From Ferruginibacter sp. (GTDB taxonomy: Bacteria > Bacteroidota > Bacteroidia > Chitinophagales > Chitinophagaceae), in NCBI GenBank assembly GCA_025352695.1, contig JANXSK010000195.1, forward strand, positions 1-64,000: a DNA stretch of 64,000 nucleotides, written 5' to 3'. This document shows positions 46,519 through 55,144 of this stretch, piece by piece (the first letter of the stretch is position 1; every line of letters starts with the position of its first letter). Under the pieces are notes generated by a model. It was not told where the DNA came from. It ran no database searches and was given only the letters and a program-made list of their open reading frames with translations. The translations under genes were made by a program, and so were the position numbers.

Positions 46519-47520
46519 TTAAATTATGCGACCAATTTTTTGTTCGAGCAACATCAGGTCGGCCAATACAAAGGCAGTAACAGCTTCCAGTACAACAGGT
46601 ACTCTTAAAGCGATGCATAAATCATGTCTGCCTTTTACTGAGAAATCTTCTGTTTCGCCCGTATCAACATTTAGTGTGTGCTGAATTTTCGGTGTAGAAG
46701 AAGTTGGTTTGATGGCGATACGAAAAACTATTTCGTTGCTGTTGGTTATACCTCCCACAATACCAGCACCATGATTGGTTCTTGTTTTACCGGTGCTATC
46801 TTCAATAGCATCATTGTGCTTGCTACCAAACATTCGGGCAGCTGCAAAACCAGTTCCAAATTCAATTCCTCTAACGGCTGGTATAGCAAATACTGCATGG
46901 GCTATCAATGATTCTGCTGAATCAAAAAACGGTTCGCCCAAACCAATAGGCAAGCCATTTACTTTGCACTCTACAATACCACCGATGGTATCTTTTGCAT
47001 CAATAGCTTTTTGCAAACCAATTTCGGTATTCGCTTCGCCACCAATTTCAAGAATAGTAGCTGTAATATTTATTTCTTTTAATAATTTTTTTGCTACCAC
47101 ACCTGCTGCTACCAAACACACTGTCAGCCTGCCACTAAAATGTCCTCCACCTCTAAAATCTTCAAAGCCTCCAAACTTTTTTGTAGCCACAAAATCTGCA
47201 TGGCCTGGTCTTGGTACGGCTCTTTGCTTTTCGTAATCGCCGCTACGTGTATTGGTATTATCAAACAAAATGGTAATAGGGGCACCTGTAGTTTTACCTT
47301 TGAAAATGCCATTCATTATTCTTGGCAAATCAGCTTCTTTACGCGGTGTAGTTCCTTTGGCTCCAGCTTTTCTTCTTTCAATATCTGTGGTAAAGTCATC
47401 TACGCTTAATAGTAAGCCTGCGGGACAACCATCAATATTAATACCCACGCATTCGCCATGCGATTCACCAAAAATACTTACTCTGAATATTCTTCCAAAA
47501 CTGTTCATAATTAATCCCAT
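46519..47520 (-). CDS. aroC: Chorismate synthase; likely start slightly downstream at MNSFGRIFRV
   Basis: GRIFRVSIFGESHGECVGINIDGCPAGL; RPGHADFVATKKFGGFEDFRGGGHFSGRLT. Confidence 0.95.
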   Translation of the reverse strand: MGLIMNSFGRIFRVSIFGESHGECVGINIDGCPAGLLLSVDDFTTDIERRKAGAKGTTPRKEADLPRIMNGIFKGKTTGAPITILFDNTNTRSGDYEKQRAVPRPGHADFVATKKFGGFEDFRGGGHFSGRLTVCLVAAGVVAKKLLKEINITATILEIGGEANTEIGLQKAIDAKDTIGGIVECKVNGLPIGLGEPFFDSAESLIAHAVFAIPAVRGIEFGTGFAAARMFGSKHNDAIEDSTGKTRTNHGAGIVGGITNSNEIVFRIAIKPTSSTPKIQHTLNVDTGETEDFSVKGRHDLCIALRVPVVLEAVTAFVLADLMLLEQKIGRII

Positions 47521-47568: not shown

Positions 47569-48852
47569 TTAATAAGAAACCACAGCCCCCAATTGTTTTA
47601 AATGCGCATAAAAATCAGGATAAGATTTATTAATAGCTTCCGCATGTTCTATAATAGTAAAACCGGTTGTTTTTAATCCGGCAACGGCACAAGCCATCGC
47701 AATACGGTGATCGTGATGAGAATGAACAGTAGCAGCTTTTACAACAGTACCGCCTTCTATCAGCATGAGATTACCTTGTAATTTTATTACGATACCCATT
47801 TTACCAAACTCTTCCCGTAAAGTTAAGCCACGGTTACTTTCTTTATGTGCCAACCTGTTCACTCCTTCTATAACTGAGGTTCCGTTGCAATAAGCCGCTA
47901 ATGCTACTAAAGGCGGAAAAAGATCAGGGCAATCAGTTGCATCAAAATGAAAGGCTTTTAGTGCATTGGTGCCTGTAGCCGGCTTTGCAATTTCAATTTG
48001 TTTTTCTTGTATAGAAATAGTGCTGCCGCAATCTATCAATGCTTGCAAAATAGCTTTATCAGCCTGGGTAGAAAAAGTATCCAATCCATTTACGGTAATT
48101 TTTCCAGCGATAGCACCTGCTACCAATAAAAATGCACCTCCGCTCCAATCACCTTCAACAGTATATTCAATGGTTGTTTCACTGGAACTATTAACAGGCT
48201 TTACCAGAAAAGATTTAAAGTTATTGTTGGTTACATCATAGCCAAAAACTTTCATCACCTGCAAGGTAAGATCAATGTAGGGCTTACTCTTTAAATTAGT
48301 AACCGTTATGGTAACCGGCTCTGTAGCAGCTTTACCAAAAGCCATTAATAAACCTGTTAAAAATTGAGAACTTAGCGACCCATCAATCGTTATATCTCTG
48401 GGTTGTAACGGACCCTTTATTTTTATAGGCAATTTACCGTTATTGGATTCGATACCTATATCCAGTTTAGGAAAAATTTCATCAAAAAAATCCATTGGCC
48501 TTGTAAGTAAACTTCCTGTTCCGTTAATAACAATTGACTTGTTACTTAATGCCGCAATAGGAGCAAACATCCGAATACCCAAACCACTTTCCCCACAATT
48601 CATTTCAGCACTAATCGGCTGTATTCCTTTACTATCAATGGTTATACAGTCATCTTCCACTTCAGTTACGGTTGCACCTAAAATTTTTATCACTGCCAAT
48701 GCAGCAAGATCATCATTACTTTTTCCGGGACTGGCAATGGTAGTTTTCCCTTCGTTTAGCAGTGCAGCAGCACATGCTCTTTGCATAGAGCTTTTAGAAG
48801 TTGGTGCATTAATTGTTCCTGAAATATAGGAAGGTTGTATTGTTACAATCAT
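47569..48852 (-). CDS. aroA: 3-phosphoshikimate 1-carboxyvinyltransferase
   Basis: INAPTSKSSMQRACAAALL; NCGESGLGIRMFAPIAAL; RLAHKESNRGLTLREEFGKMG; HHDHRIAMACAVAGL. Confidence 0.95.
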   Translation of the reverse strand: MIVTIQPSYISGTINAPTSKSSMQRACAAALLNEGKTTIASPGKSNDDLAALAVIKILGATVTEVEDDCITIDSKGIQPISAEMNCGESGLGIRMFAPIAALSNKSIVINGTGSLLTRPMDFFDEIFPKLDIGIESNNGKLPIKIKGPLQPRDITIDGSLSSQFLTGLLMAFGKAATEPVTITVTNLKSKPYIDLTLQVMKVFGYDVTNNNFKSFLVKPVNSSSETTIEYTVEGDWSGGAFLLVAGAIAGKITVNGLDTFSTQADKAILQALIDCGSTISIQEKQIEIAKPATGTNALKAFHFDATDCPDLFPPLVALAAYCNGTSVIEGVNRLAHKESNRGLTLREEFGKMGIVIKLQGNLMLIEGGTVVKAATVHSHHDHRIAMACAVAGLKTTGFTIIEHAEAINKSYPDFYAHLKQLGAVVSY

Positions 48853-48918: not shown

Positions 48919-49971
48919 TTAATGGATTAAATTTTCCAGTTCGTTCATATCAATTGTCTGTATAATTGCTTCGCCAATGGAATTCAACAGGATAAAATTC
49001 ATGCTATTGCTTACTCTTTTTTTATCCATCTTTAACACCGCCCAAATTTTTTGTTTATCATATTCATATTGTGTGGGTAAATGGTATTTTTTAAGCAGGG
49101 CTTTTATTTTATTTGTATCTGATACTGAAAAATTATTGGTTGATTCCGAAATAGCACAAGCTGCTATCATACCTATACTTACTGCATGACCATGCGGTAA
49201 AAGGTACAGGTTTTCAATTGCATGTCCCAAAGTATGTCCAAAATTTAATAGTTTCCGATCGCTCATTTCAAACTCATCATTTACTACAACAGTGGTTTTT
49301 ATTTGTACATTTCTTTCAATTAAATTTGCCAGCTTGCCTATATCAGCCTGAAAATTTTCGATTGATTCCTGCTCCAGCAATGCAAATAATTCGGCATCTT
49401 TAATACATGCATGTTTTATTACTTCTGCAAAACCATTAATCCATTCTGGATGGGGTAATGTTTTTAAAAGCGAATAATCAAACAATAAAAATTCGGGTTG
49501 TTTTATGAGACCAACTAAGTTTTTATACATACCCACATCAACACCGTTTTTACCACCAATGGCAGCATCTACCATTGAAAGAATAGTTGTTGGCACAAAA
49601 GCAAATTTTACCCCACGCATGTAAATACTGGCAGCAAAACCAGTAATATCAGTTACCACACCACCACCGACACCTACAATAAAACTAGTACGGTCTGCAT
49701 TTCGTGCTATCAGCTCATCAATAATAAAATTAACAGTAGCTTGTTGTTTATGCGTTTCGCCTGCAGGCAGTATAATCGTTTGCCAAGCCTTAAACAATTG
49801 TTGATTACTTTCAAACACGTTGGTGTCAGTAATGATAAAGGTATTGTCTCTGGCAACAATTTGTTCCAGATAAGCAAACGATGTATCAAAATAGTAAGAG
49901 CCACCAAAATTACCTACAGTTGGAATTGCTTCAGAAGCACCGGCAAATGATGAAACTTTAATAATTTTCAT
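48919..49971 (-). CDS. aroB: 3-dehydroquinate synthase
   Basis: GVGGGVVTDITGFAASIYMRGVKFAFVPTTILSMVDAAIGGKNGVD; LLNFGHTLGHAIE. Confidence 0.95.
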   Translation of the reverse strand: MKIIKVSSFAGASEAIPTVGNFGGSYYFDTSFAYLEQIVARDNTFIITDTNVFESNQQLFKAWQTIILPAGETHKQQATVNFIIDELIARNADRTSFIVGVGGGVVTDITGFAASIYMRGVKFAFVPTTILSMVDAAIGGKNGVDVGMYKNLVGLIKQPEFLLFDYSLLKTLPHPEWINGFAEVIKHACIKDAELFALLEQESIENFQADIGKLANLIERNVQIKTTVVVNDEFEMSDRKLLNFGHTLGHAIENLYLLPHGHAVSIGMIAACAISESTNNFSVSDTNKIKALLKKYHLPTQYEYDKQKIWAVLKMDKKRVSNSMNFILLNSIGEAIIQTIDMNELENLIH

Positions 49972-50058: not shown

Positions 50059-51174
50059 TTAAGAGTTCATCACTTTATTCTGGTGGTTTATACTTTCCAA
50101 ATGTACTGCATCATAATATTTGGTAATAAAATCCTGGCTTAATCCAAGTACCTCACCTTTCTTAAATGCTTTTTGTAAAATATCATTCCAGCGGTTGGTT
50201 TGTAAAATAGTAATATTATTTTCTCTTTTATATTCACCGATTTTATCAGCAATTTTCATGCGTTGTGCAATCAAAGCCAACAATTCATCATCTACATGGT
50301 TAATTTGCTCTCTTAATGTTGCCAATGCAGTTATAAACTCCTGTTTGTCGGTAGCTTCGGAGCGCCAGATTAACGCATCCAGCATTTCTGCCAAACGTTC
50401 GGGCGTAATTTGTTGCTTTGCATCGCTCCATGCGTTATCCGGATCAATGTGACTTTCAATCATCACGCCATCAAAATCAAGATCAATACTTTTTTGTGAT
50501 ACAGATTGCAAATTGATTCTGTTACCACAAATATGCGAAGGATCACAAATTAAAATCATTTCTGGAAAACGACGTTTCATTTCAATTGGCAAATGCCACA
50601 TCGGTGCGTTGCGATATTCAGTATTACCATAGTTTGAAAATCCCCGGTGTATCATCCCCACTTGTTTGATTCCAGCTTTCTGTATACGTTCAATTGCACC
50701 GGTCCATAATTCCAGATCTGGATTGATTGGATTTTTAATTAATACCGGAACATCAACACCACGCAAGGCATCGGCAACTTCCTGCACACTAAAAGGATTC
50801 ACTGTAGTTCTTGCACCAATCCAAAGCATATCGGTATCAAAATGCAATGCATCTTCTACGTGTTTTGCGGTTGCAACTTCTACCGTTGTTGGTAAACCAG
50901 TAATCTTTTTTGCAGTTGCCATCCAGGACAATCCTTTAGCACCAATACCTTCAAATAAACCTGGCTTGGTACGTGGTTTCCAGATACCTGCACGTAAAAC
51001 ATCCACCTTGCCTGTTTTAGCAAGTCGGGTAGCTGTTTCAATAACCTGCTCTTCGGTTTCGGCACTACATGGGCCACTAATAATTAAAGGACGTTTTGCC
51101 CATTTTTCCTGCATTAATTCTTTCATAGTTTTGTTTTCTGTTTGCATTGTAAAATTAGTTTTTGTTACCAACAT
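50059..51174 (-). CDS. Bifunctional DAHP synthase / type II chorismate mutase
   Basis: IISGPCSAETEEQV..LRAGIWKPRTKPGLFEGIG; C-term REQINHVDDELLALIAQRMKIADKIGEYKRENNI. Confidence 0.94.
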   Translation of the reverse strand: MLVTKTNFTMQTENKTMKELMQEKWAKRPLIISGPCSAETEEQVIETATRLAKTGKVDVLRAGIWKPRTKPGLFEGIGAKGLSWMATAKKITGLPTTVEVATAKHVEDALHFDTDMLWIGARTTVNPFSVQEVADALRGVDVPVLIKNPINPDLELWTGAIERIQKAGIKQVGMIHRGFSNYGNTEYRNAPMWHLPIEMKRRFPEMILICDPSHICGNRINLQSVSQKSIDLDFDGVMIESHIDPDNAWSDAKQQITPERLAEMLDALIWRSEATDKQEFITALATLREQINHVDDELLALIAQRMKIADKIGEYKRENNITILQTNRWNDILQKAFKKGEVLGLSQDFITKYYDAVHLESINHQNKVMNS

Positions 51175-51324: not shown

Positions 51325-52290
51325 TCATTTTAAAATTCGTTTTATTTTATTTGCATTCTCCATCAGCTCTACCAGATATTCTAAATTTTCCTTTTCCAGG
51401 CTCATTTTAAATTTTCTTAACTGCGAAATATGTTCATTCAACACATCAAGTACATTCTCTCTATTTTGCATAAAAATCGGTGCCCACATAGCGGGGTTGC
51501 TTTTTGCTAACCGTACTGTACTTTCAAAGCCTCCGCCTGCCAGTTCAAAAATGGCGTCTTCTTCTTTCTCTTTTTCCAATACGGTATTGGCAAGGGCAAA
51601 AGAAGTAATGTGTGAAATATGACTAATGTAAGCCGCATGAATATCATGGGCATGTGCATTCATATAAACAATATGCATCCCCAGTGATTTGTACATATTT
51701 TCAACCGTTGCCACCACATCGGCATCTGTTTTTTCTTTTTCACAAATCACACACGCCCTACCCTCAAAAGCACCTCTCACAGCGGCTTCAGGACCACTGT
51801 ATTCGGTTCCCCACATCGGGTGAGTTGCAATAAAACGATGTCGCATCGGGTGATCTTTTAATGCATCACACAAAACAAATTTGGTAGATCCTGCATCTGC
51901 AACCATTTGTTTATCCGTTAGCAGATCCATTATTTGTTTCATCACAACTACAGTTGCATCAACAGGAATTGCTACATAAATAAAATCACTTTGTTTTACC
52001 GCTTCTTCAAATGGCAAAGCTTCATCAATTATTCCAAGTTCTTTTGCCTTTTGCAAACTTGCTTCAGTTCTGCTAACACCAATAATTTTTTTAGCAAAAC
52101 CTTTTTCTTTCATCGCCAGGGCAAATGAACCACTTATTAAACCAACACCTACTATTGTAATTATACCTGTGGCTAAAGAAGTTACTTTTTCAGCCGATAT
52201 TCCAGTTATAATATTTTCTTTATTAATTGGTTCTATACTTTCCATTGTAACAAATCTTTTTCTTATTTCCATTAACCTTTTGTAGATCAA
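51325..52290 (-). CDS. tyrA: Prephenate dehydrogenase
   Basis: TIVGVGLISGSFALAMKEKGFAKKIIGVSR; ATHPMWGTEYSGPEAA; ISHITSFALA. Confidence 0.93.
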   Translation of the reverse strand: MIYKRLMEIRKRFVTMESIEPINKENIITGISAEKVTSLATGIITIVGVGLISGSFALAMKEKGFAKKIIGVSRTEASLQKAKELGIIDEALPFEEAVKQSDFIYVAIPVDATVVVMKQIMDLLTDKQMVADAGSTKFVLCDALKDHPMRHRFIATHPMWGTEYSGPEAAVRGAFEGRACVICEKEKTDADVVATVENMYKSLGMHIVYMNAHAHDIHAAYISHISHITSFALANTVLEKEKEEDAIFELAGGGFESTVRLAKSNPAMWAPIFMQNRENVLDVLNEHISQLRKFKMSLEKENLEYLVELMENANKIKRILK

Positions 52291-52296
52291 AAGGCT

Positions 52297-53526
52297 TTAT
52301 GCAATTTTCCTAATCCGGTCAATTGCTTCCACTATTTTTTCCACACTGCTGCATAAACTAACCCTTACATATTTATCCCCGGCACTTCCAAATATTCCAC
52401 CAGGTGTTATAAATACATTCGATTCATACAATACTTTGTCACATAATTCATATCCATCTTTATATCCCGAAGGAATCGCTGCCCATACAAATAAGCCAAC
52501 CTGTTTTTCATCAAATGTGCAATGCAGTAATTGCAATAATTCAATCACTTTCTCCCTTCGCTGCCGGTACACTTTATTTACTTCTTCATGAAAGTCACCT
52601 TGCAATTGCAGTGCTTTTACGGCTGCTAATTGAAGTGGTAAAAACATTCCACTATCCATATTGCTTTTAAAACGCAATACTTCATTAATTCTTTCAGTGG
52701 CCCCTGCCAGCAAACCAATACGCCAGCCCGCCATATTGTGCGATTTACTTAATGAGTTTAATTCTATGGCCACATCTTTTGCTCCGTCAACACTTAATAA
52801 ACTTAAAGGAGTGTCGTTTAAAATAAAACTGTAGGGATTATCATGAACCAATAAAATAGCATGTTTTTTTGCAAATGCAACAAGTTGTGTAAAAAGCTCC
52901 TTTGTGGGCAGCTGCCCTGTTGGCATTTGCGGATAATTTACAAACATCAGCTTCACTTTTTGCAGGTCTGTTTTTTCCAAAGCTACAAAATCCGGAAACC
53001 AGTTATTTTCTTTTGTAAGGTTATATTCCACAACTGTACCACCTGAAATTTTAACCGCACTTTTATAAGTAGGATATCCAGGATTGGGAATTAGTACAAA
53101 ATCTCCTTCATTTATATAGGTCATACAAATATGCATGATACCTTCTTTACTTCCTATCAATGGCAATATTTCTGTATCAGCGTTTAGTGTAACATCATAC
53201 CATTTTTTATACCAGTTGCTCACTGCATTTCGAAGCACAGGGCTACCTTTATAATTCTGGTATCCATGTTGATCAGACTTCATTGCTTCTTCCTGCAATA
53301 CTTTTATAACAGCAGGATGGGGTGGTAAATCCGGGCTACCAATACCTAAATTTATAACCTGCCTGCCTGCCTTATTCATATCATCTATCTCACGCAGTTT
53401 TGTAGAAAAATAATATTCTCCTACTCCTTCTAATCTTTTTGATACATTCATCTCTAAAACTGTACCCGCCACTGATTCCATTGTTTGGGAAGATGTAGGT
53501 TCCTTTAAAATTATTTTATCGTTCAT
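52297..53526 (-). CDS. PLP-dependent class I/II aminotransferase (probable aromatic/prephenate aminotransferase by context)
   Basis: INLGIGSPDLPPHPAVI; NPGYPTYKSAVKISGG; NSLSKSHNMAGWRIGLLAG. Confidence 0.92.
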   Translation of the reverse strand: MNDKIILKEPTSSQTMESVAGTVLEMNVSKRLEGVGEYYFSTKLREIDDMNKAGRQVINLGIGSPDLPPHPAVIKVLQEEAMKSDQHGYQNYKGSPVLRNAVSNWYKKWYDVTLNADTEILPLIGSKEGIMHICMTYINEGDFVLIPNPGYPTYKSAVKISGGTVVEYNLTKENNWFPDFVALEKTDLQKVKLMFVNYPQMPTGQLPTKELFTQLVAFAKKHAILLVHDNPYSFILNDTPLSLLSVDGAKDVAIELNSLSKSHNMAGWRIGLLAGATERINEVLRFKSNMDSGMFLPLQLAAVKALQLQGDFHEEVNKVYRQRREKVIELLQLLHCTFDEKQVGLFVWAAIPSGYKDGYELCDKVLYESNVFITPGGIFGSAGDKYVRVSLCSSVEKIVEAIDRIRKIA

Positions 53527-53561: not shown

Positions 53562-54497
53562 TTATCCTTTTTTTTTTGTTGTAATAGCCTTACTTGTTAC
53601 GCTGGTTGCAGAACCACTTTTGCCATTTTTATAAACGCCGTATATTTTAACTTCTTCTGTAATAGGTTTAATCCTTTTGATAACATTATAAAATTGTTCA
53701 ACAGTATCAAACTCAACATCTGCATGAAAAGAATATTTAAAGTCGCTGCCCGGTATAGGAAAAGACTGCAACTTACTTAGGTTAATGCCTGCATCTGCAA
53801 TCTTTGAAAGTACTTTAGCCAAGCTACCTTTTGAATGGTCTGTATGAAAGTTAATAGAAGCTTTATCTGCATCTAAAATTTCTTTTACCGCTTCTGCCCT
53901 TTGTAATATTAAAAACCGGGTATAATTATTTTTTAATGTATGAATATTAGGAGCTATAATATCGAGGTCATAAATTTCTGCTGCCAGCTTACTGGCTATT
54001 GCAGCTACATGTTTACTTCGGTGTTGCTGTATTTGTTTGGCACTAAGTGCAGTATCTTCCTTTTCTACCAATTTCCAATTATGCTTATCTAAAAAACCAA
54101 AACATTGCTGAATAGCCATTGGGTGAGAATGTACTTCCTTTATATCCGCTAATTGTACTCCTTTGTTTACCATTAGGTGCTGATTTATTTGTAAATAAAC
54201 TTCGCCTACAATGGTAAGGTTACTCTTTTGCAATAAATTATAATTTGGCAAAATGCTTCCAGCAATAGAATTTTCAATAGCCATTACGCCGCCATCACTT
54301 TCCTTTTTATTACCAGCAATATCTATAACTTCCCGAAAGGTTGAGCAACAAATTACATTGGTGCCTTTACCATAAAAATTTCTTGCAGCTTCCTGATGAA
54401 AACATCCTTCAAATCCTTGTATAGAGACTTTTATAGATGATCTATTTTGCGATGCATTAATTTTTGTAACAACAGTGGAATTATCCGGATGCACCAT
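53562..54497 (-). CDS. pheA: Prephenate dehydratase
   Basis: IQGFEGCFHQEAARNFYG; AIENSIAGSILPNYNLL; NYTRFLILQR; ACT domain GSLAKVLSKIADAGINLSKLQSFPIPGSDFKYSFHADVEF. Confidence 0.94.
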   Translation of the reverse strand: MVHPDNSTVVTKINASQNRSSIKVSIQGFEGCFHQEAARNFYGKGTNVICCSTFREVIDIAGNKKESDGGVMAIENSIAGSILPNYNLLQKSNLTIVGEVYLQINQHLMVNKGVQLADIKEVHSHPMAIQQCFGFLDKHNWKLVEKEDTALSAKQIQQHRSKHVAAIASKLAAEIYDLDIIAPNIHTLKNNYTRFLILQRAEAVKEILDADKASINFHTDHSKGSLAKVLSKIADAGINLSKLQSFPIPGSDFKYSFHADVEFDTVEQFYNVIKRIKPITEEVKIYGVYKNGKSGSATSVTSKAITTKKKG

Positions 54498-54545
54498 TTT
54501 TTAATTAATTTAATAAACAATTTTTCATGATTAGGTATAAATAAA

Positions 54546-54570
54546 AATCCCGACCTATTTAGCCGGGATT
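54546..54570 (-). terminator. Attenuator terminator hairpin upstream of pheA
   Basis: Minus strand AATCCCG-gctaaataggt-CGGGATT followed by TTTATTTAT, between leader ORF and pheA. Confidence 0.85.
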
Positions 54571-54604
54571 CTTTTATGTTAATCAGTTTAATTTTTTTTT
54601 ACAC

Positions 54605-54679
54605 TTAACAAAAGACTCCCGCTCCATTTTTAAAATAGAAACTAAAATAAAATCGGGTGTATATTATTATTTTTGTCAT
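54605..54679 (-). CDS. Phe/Tyr leader peptide MTKIIIYTRFYFSFYFKNGAGVFC*
   Basis: 24-codon ORF, 5 Phe + 3 Tyr, followed by antiterminator and terminator segments and the pheA-tyrA operon. Confidence 0.85.
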   Translation of the reverse strand: MTKIIIYTRFYFSFYFKNGAGVFC

Positions 54680-54922
54680 TTATAAATTAAAAGTAGAGTA
54701 ATAAATTTAATTAGCCAATAATTTCTCAATAATTAAGTTAAAACCTTGAAAAAAAATCATTAAAAATGCTATTTTAATTGATTTCTGTATTTATAAAGCA
54801 TCCTTAAAATATAGACGCCCCTAAGAATAGAGGCGACTTTAACGATTGCTTGCCATATGAAAATCTTTATATAAAACCGGTGTTTTTAAAATTCAAGCAA
54901 TCAATTACCGGCCTGATAATTA

Positions 54923-55144
54923 CTATTTTTTTGCAGCAGAATCAATTTTTTTTGCAGCAGAATCCATTTTATGTGCAGCAGAATCCATCTTGTGTGCAGC
55001 AGAATCAATTACGGCAGGAGTTGCAGCTTTGATTGAATCAGCAATTCTAGCTGAATCAATAGCAGTTGCAGCAGGAGTTTCAGTTGCGTTGTTACAAGCA
55101 ACTAATGAGGTAGCAATAGCGAATACAAAAAGTACTTTTTTCAT
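54923..55144 (-). CDS. Small lipoprotein with C-terminal heptad repeat DSAAHKM
   Basis: Lipobox SLVAC; VIDSAAHKMDSAAHKMDSAAKKIDSAAKK. Confidence 0.8.
   Translation of the reverse strand: MKKVLFVFAIATSLVACNNATETPAATAIDSARIADSIKAATPAVIDSAAHKMDSAAHKMDSAAKKIDSAAKK

Follow-up and report, generated by a model that had tools for sequence, protein, structure and literature searches.

A probable phenylalanine/tyrosine attenuator upstream of the aromatic amino acid genes of Ferruginibacter sp. and its relatives

RESULTS

The region upstream of pheA in Ferruginibacter sp. very probably carries a ribosome-mediated attenuator that would make expression of a seven-gene aromatic operon depend on how much charged tRNA-Phe and tRNA-Tyr is available (we put the probability of this reading at about 0.93). 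It lies in a window of 64,000 nucleotides (contig JANXSK010000195.1, positions 1 to 64,000), the whole stretch of DNA analyzed here. The elements, pairings, and spacing of the leader emerge from comparison among relatives, and from sequence we infer where transcription starts, how the switch responds, and that it senses both amino acids. In the proposed mechanism, RNA polymerase would start just a few nucleotides ahead of the leader AUG, and translation of the leader peptide would begin without a Shine-Dalgarno site. With Phe-tRNA or Tyr-tRNA scarce, the ribosome would stall at codons 10 to 16, covering segment 1 and leaving segment 2 free; the 2:3 antiterminator would then form, prevent the terminator, and allow the operon to be read. 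With both tRNAs plentiful, a ribosome at the stop codon would cover segment 2, so that the 3:4 terminator would form and transcription would stop. Without translation, 1:2 would form and termination would be the default.

Downstream of the leader, seven co-directional genes occupy positions 54497 to 46519 of the minus strand, separated by gaps of about 5 to 150 nt. They are pheA (prephenate dehydratase, Pfam PDT; 53562 to 54497), a class I/II aminotransferase gene (52297 to 53526) that adjoins pheA in 81 of 85 relatives' loci, tyrA (prephenate dehydrogenase; 51325 to 52290), an aroF/aroG-type DAHP synthase fused to chorismate mutase (50059 to 51174), aroB (48919 to 49971), aroA (47569 to 48852), and aroC (chorismate synthase; 46519 to 47520). 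Their shared orientation and short gaps suggest a single transcript. A first-pass annotation of this DNA had described a pheA-tyrA-aroF operon; the idea of a merged aromatic operon holds, with an extent that was drawn too short. On the other side of the leader, the minus strand encodes at 55144 to 54923 a lipoprotein-like protein of 73 aa, which contains DSAAHKM repeats and has no Pfam match. Between this gene and the pheA leader lies a conserved GGCAAGCAATCGTTAAAGTCGCC followed by a terminator (54870 to 54810, minus strand). The motif recurs at the equivalent place in many relatives, and the element may belong to a 3' UTR or be a small RNA.

Direct reading of the minus strand gives a leader peptide ORF, MTKIIIYTRFYFSFYFKNGAGVFC, at 54605 to 54679 upstream of pheA, with 24 codons followed by TAA, 5 Phe and 3 Tyr, exactly as the first-pass annotation had it. 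Its control codons are F10, Y11, F12, F14, Y15, and F16; this short, apparently translated ORF is rich in codons that specify the end products of the operon. Taken alone, such an ORF is within chance expectation for AT-rich DNA. The window by itself therefore proves little: at this AT content, a small ORF reaching the same F/Y score turns up in 78 of 2000 Markov shuffles of its pheA upstream region. That figure is what speaks for regarding ORF and stems together as a chance pattern of an AT-rich intergenic region upstream of pheA, a view that is refuted by the comparative tests, with compensatory changes and conservation in dozens of species, and that we consider next to impossible. Indeed, among 142 pheA upstream regions, an F/Y-ORF score of 5 is reached in 90% on the sense strand, whereas the reverse strand reaches it in 8.5% and shuffles do so in 6.5%. 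Unlike in the window alone, the F/Y-rich ORF is thus significant when relatives are compared.

For this comparison, pheA homologues were gathered from the genus, family, order, and phylum, and their upstream regions were then read. An F/Y-rich ORF together with an antiterminator and a terminator is found in about 120 non-identical pheA leaders of the genus, family, order, and class, so that both features whose conservation the first-pass annotation had proposed to check, the aromatic ORF and the stems, recur at all these levels. Leaders occur in most of the window's family and, beyond it, in several further families belonging to its order and class. They are mostly missing in the wider phylum sample, with few exceptions (e.g., loci L121, L128, L236, and L255), and most of the exceptional genomes have a relatively similar pheA. 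Promoter type and protein kinship point to genomes of the Bacteroidetes type, and Flavobacteriaceae-like members are probably among the sequences compared. A covariance model search of the window's own genome returned one match, at the leader upstream of pheA (125.6 bits), and genus members without a pheA match mostly gave no strong leader match with the model. Many members of the genus have nearly complete, small genomes in which no pheA match was found (G009, G011, G012, G026, and others), which suggests repeated loss of aromatic amino acid synthesis.

In several loci, two aromatic-rich ORFs stand in series before pheA (L114, L102/L138, and L123). In L114, where their positions relative to the locus end are about -406 and -255, and in L102/L138, each tandem ORF is followed by its own terminator. 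Tandem leaders apparently arose more than once.

The leader RNA folds at -33.4 kcal/mol (z of -3.84), better than all 200 dinucleotide shuffles, which answers the folding check that had been proposed for it. Four segments, all on the minus strand, account for the alternative structures, and direct reading places each of them where the first-pass annotation had, with segment 2 at 54621 to 54606 and segment 3 at 54581 to 54564. As delimited here, segment 1 (54640 to 54660) comprises ACACCCG (54660 to 54654) and reaches into the first part of the U-rich control run. It is the partner of segment 2 (CGGGAGTCTTTTGTTAA; 54605 to 54621), which overlaps the final codons of the leader ORF. Segment 3 (54564 to 54582) provides both the 3' strand of antiterminator 2:3 and the 5' strand of terminator 3:4. 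Segment 4 is CGGGATT (54552 to 54546). An intrinsic terminator, with stem GAAUCCCGGCU/GGUCGGGAUUUU and a U tract (54541 to 54573), is thus found between the leader ORF and the first gene. Folded in isolation, 2:3 reaches -13.4 kcal/mol, 3:4 reaches -17.6 kcal/mol, and 1:2 with its inner stem reaches -9.7 kcal/mol.

Covariation supports the two main stems proposed in the first-pass annotation. The 3:4 terminator is 92.5% paired in the genus alignment and 91.3% in the family alignment, with a covariation matched in 0 of 500 shuffles in both. For the 2:3 antiterminator, 78.9% of cells are paired in the genus alignment (covariation matched in 5/500 shuffles) and 85.7% in the family alignment (0/500), and slid versions of the pairing reach at most 55%. 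In a test independent of alignment, the pairing between two segments of one leader was set against that between segments exchanged among species. For 2:3 without its GGG/CCC core, the own-pair value was matched by none of 20000 permutations. When the test was rerun on 68 divergent leaders with composition controls, the 2:3 tails gave a z of -6.5 versus -2.7 to -3.4 for the controls; the own-versus-swapped signal is therefore partly base composition (control z about -3 against -6.5). Together, these analyses argue for an antiterminator that overlaps the end of the ORF and excludes the terminator.

The 1:2 pairing behaves differently in the two kinds of test. Its exact columns, as drawn in the first-pass annotation, showed no conservation in the column covariation test. 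We considered the absence of pairing that this failure suggested and rejected it, since the composition-controlled alignment-free test gave a z of -7.9 against -0.6 for the controls. Because the exact columns are unconserved yet the alignment-free test is positive, the comparison supports a 1:2 pairing that is present in the leaders and shifts in register between them; the pairing once proposed stands, and its precise base pairs do not. Such a pairing would free 3:4 when the leader is not translated. A further element, absent from the earlier description, is a conserved small hairpin, P1 (54622 to 54640, minus strand), which takes in the last control codons as well as the spacer and directly abuts segment 2. 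It is 77% paired, with covariation matched in 0 of 500 shuffles and an alignment-free z of -8.3 (controls about -2), and it may be a pause hairpin.

The aromatic codons of the control region keep to one frame. In the stretch of nine codons that closes with the last control codon, F plus Y make up 82% in frame 0 and 26 to 27% in the other two frames (120 leaders). UUU, UUC, UAU, and UAC are all in use, and the second codon position switches between U and A, so that F and Y interchange at each control position. Both amino acids are present in 119 of 120 leaders, and at least 2 Tyr stand among the last nine codons in 110 of them. Trp was considered as an additional signal and rejected: W makes up 0.8% of leader residues and 17 of 966 aromatic control-run codons, with no enrichment. 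Given the interchange of F and Y, the co-occurrence of both, and the unenriched Trp, we propose that a shortage of Phe or of Tyr opens the operon; the switch probably senses both, and the response to both amino acids claimed in the first-pass annotation is well supported at the sequence level.

Enterobacterial pheL has Phe codons only, and the attenuator described here might likewise sense only Phe in practice, its Tyr codons being tolerated as UAU and UAC fit the RNA pairing. The aromatic codon totals (586 Phe versus 363 Tyr) and the last control codon, which is Phe in 109 of 120 leaders, are in line with this. The near-constant presence of both amino acids, their interchange at each position, and the inclusion of tyrA in the same gene run speak against it, and we regard Phe-only sensing as unlikely.

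The spacing between control codons and antiterminator is also regular. In 113 of 120 leaders, segment 2 begins 6 to 11 nt after the last aromatic codon, and in 97% the distance is 5 to 14 nt, versus 12% for other residues. We folded the window's RNA with a modelled ribosome, whose footprint and folding order are assumptions of the model. With the A site at codons 10 to 16, 2:3 is fully available in this model (-13.6 kcal/mol); moving the A site to codon 17 leaves -8.5 kcal/mol, and once the stop codon is reached the value is 0. In the model, the spacing of the control codons fits what the attenuation mechanism requires, a ribosome stalled on them leaving segment 2 free. The classical logic already invoked for this leader, in which a stalled ribosome masks segment 1 and favors 2:3, would agree with both the conserved spacing and the modelled ribosome.

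Upstream of the leader ORF, a probable sigma-A -7 box, TACTTTTA (54688 to 54695, minus strand), matches the consensus TAnnTTTG with one mismatch and ends 8 nt before the leader ATG. In 80 of 125 relatives, TAnnTTTG is present without mismatch no farther than 32 nt from the leader ATG, as against 7 of 879 control windows, and the median distance from box to ATG in pheA leaders is 7 nt. Shine-Dalgarno-like motifs occur in 3 of 125 leaders. A sigma-70 promoter scan, which is unsuited to Bacteroidetes-type promoters, found sites no more frequently than in shuffles. Since the sigma-A box is reported at -12 to -5 relative to the transcription start (PMC9723704), a 5' UTR of about 4 nt is predicted, and the promoter box would place the transcription start about 0 to 6 nt before the leader AUG. 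A start downstream of 54605 would have been at odds with the first-pass annotation; the predicted one lies instead upstream of that position, beside the leader AUG. Measured 5' UTR medians in two Bacteroidetes species are 24 to 32 nt, and leaderless or very short 5' UTRs make up about 4 to 6% in two such species (PMC7366714, PMC9723704).

A structured leader could also be a constitutive terminator, or one sensing a protein or a metabolite, with the small ORF incidental. AT-rich DNA does encode F/Y runs easily, and a strong terminator is present. Aromatic codons specific to one frame, a fixed distance between codons and antiterminator, and a promoter at the start of the ORF would be unexpected without translation, however, and no Rfam aptamer matched at the gathering threshold, which makes an incidental ORF very improbable.

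The Phe/Tyr attenuator appears to have company. His-rich (MKQITHIHHHHFLPRGKQC), Trp-rich (MKIKNKYNISWWWQSLL), and Ile/Val-rich leader ORFs precede hisG, trpE, and ilvD in the same genome and in the family (L153, L201, and L233 for hisG, ilvD, and trpE of the own genome; L146 to L235 in the family). Since these leaders occur in the same genome, the Phe/Tyr leader is one of a set. A -7 promoter box stands just upstream of most of these ORFs, and the predicted 5' UTRs are 6 nt for hisG, 3 nt for trpE, and 14 nt for ilvD.

DISCUSSION

Taking these observations together, we lean toward a broader reading: the near-leaderless Phe-or-Tyr attenuator would be a class-wide ancestral control of the merged aromatic operon, part of a shared system of Phe/Tyr, His, Trp, and Ile/Val leader peptides in bacteria without Shine-Dalgarno initiation, and doubled into tandem attenuators in several lineages. 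The element itself has no Rfam family and is common to a large group of environmental Bacteroidetes-type bacteria. It offers a testable rule, namely, that too little of either Phe or Tyr would switch on the entire common pathway together with both branches. It also raises the question of how ribosomes load on a leader ORF at the 5' end of a message without a Shine-Dalgarno site, fast enough for coupling to the polymerase.

Several known systems invite comparison. Most known cases of leader-peptide attenuation come from Proteobacteria and Actinobacteria. A 2010 survey stated that leader-peptide systems were known only in Proteobacteria and Actinobacteria until its own Firmicutes case (PMC2965389). 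The Bacteroid-trp RNA motif (RF01692, PMC2864571) is, like the present leader, a proposed cis-regulatory element in Bacteroidetes; judged by its name alone, it concerns trp genes rather than Phe/Tyr, and at the gathering threshold it matched neither the window nor the trpE locus of the same genome. Indeed, the Rfam scan at gathering thresholds gave no matches in the window or in the hisG, ilvD, and trpE loci of its genome. The trpL attenuator of Sinorhizobium meliloti (peTrpL; PMC7298713) resembles our proposal in that its transcript starts at the leader AUG; it is Trp specific and belongs to the Alphaproteobacteria, and the short 5' UTR here is predicted from the promoter box only.

A 2021 transcriptome study of Flavobacterium psychrophilum noted clues to leader-peptide attenuation ahead of amino acid operons. 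It also reported that pheA is preceded by a structured 5' element, which is conserved in Flavobacteriaceae and lacks an Rfam match (PMC9723704). That element shares with ours the gene, the clues to leader-peptide attenuation, and the absence of an Rfam match; the main text of that paper describes neither a peptide nor an anatomy for it, and neither Phe/Tyr specificity nor a wider conservation. Within the openly accessible main texts that we searched, we found no description of the peptide, the anatomy, the Phe/Tyr pairing, or the wide conservation.

The enterobacterial pheA leader (pheL; Rfam RF01859, Phe_leader) shares with the leader described here a Phe-rich peptide, alternative antiterminator and terminator structures, and a position upstream of pheA. 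In an E-value scan, RF01859 gave a weak match on the correct strand and in the expected position (22.9 bits, E of 0.058 to 0.2, among chance matches), far under its gathering score of 55 bits, and the window's leader falls outside that family. Compared with pheL, the present leader has Tyr codons as constant as Phe codons, a seven-gene operon, no Shine-Dalgarno site, a message predicted to be near leaderless, and a different sequence. Its design is classical, whereas its wide Bacteroidetes-type conservation, probable double specificity, and predicted near-leaderless start are little documented.
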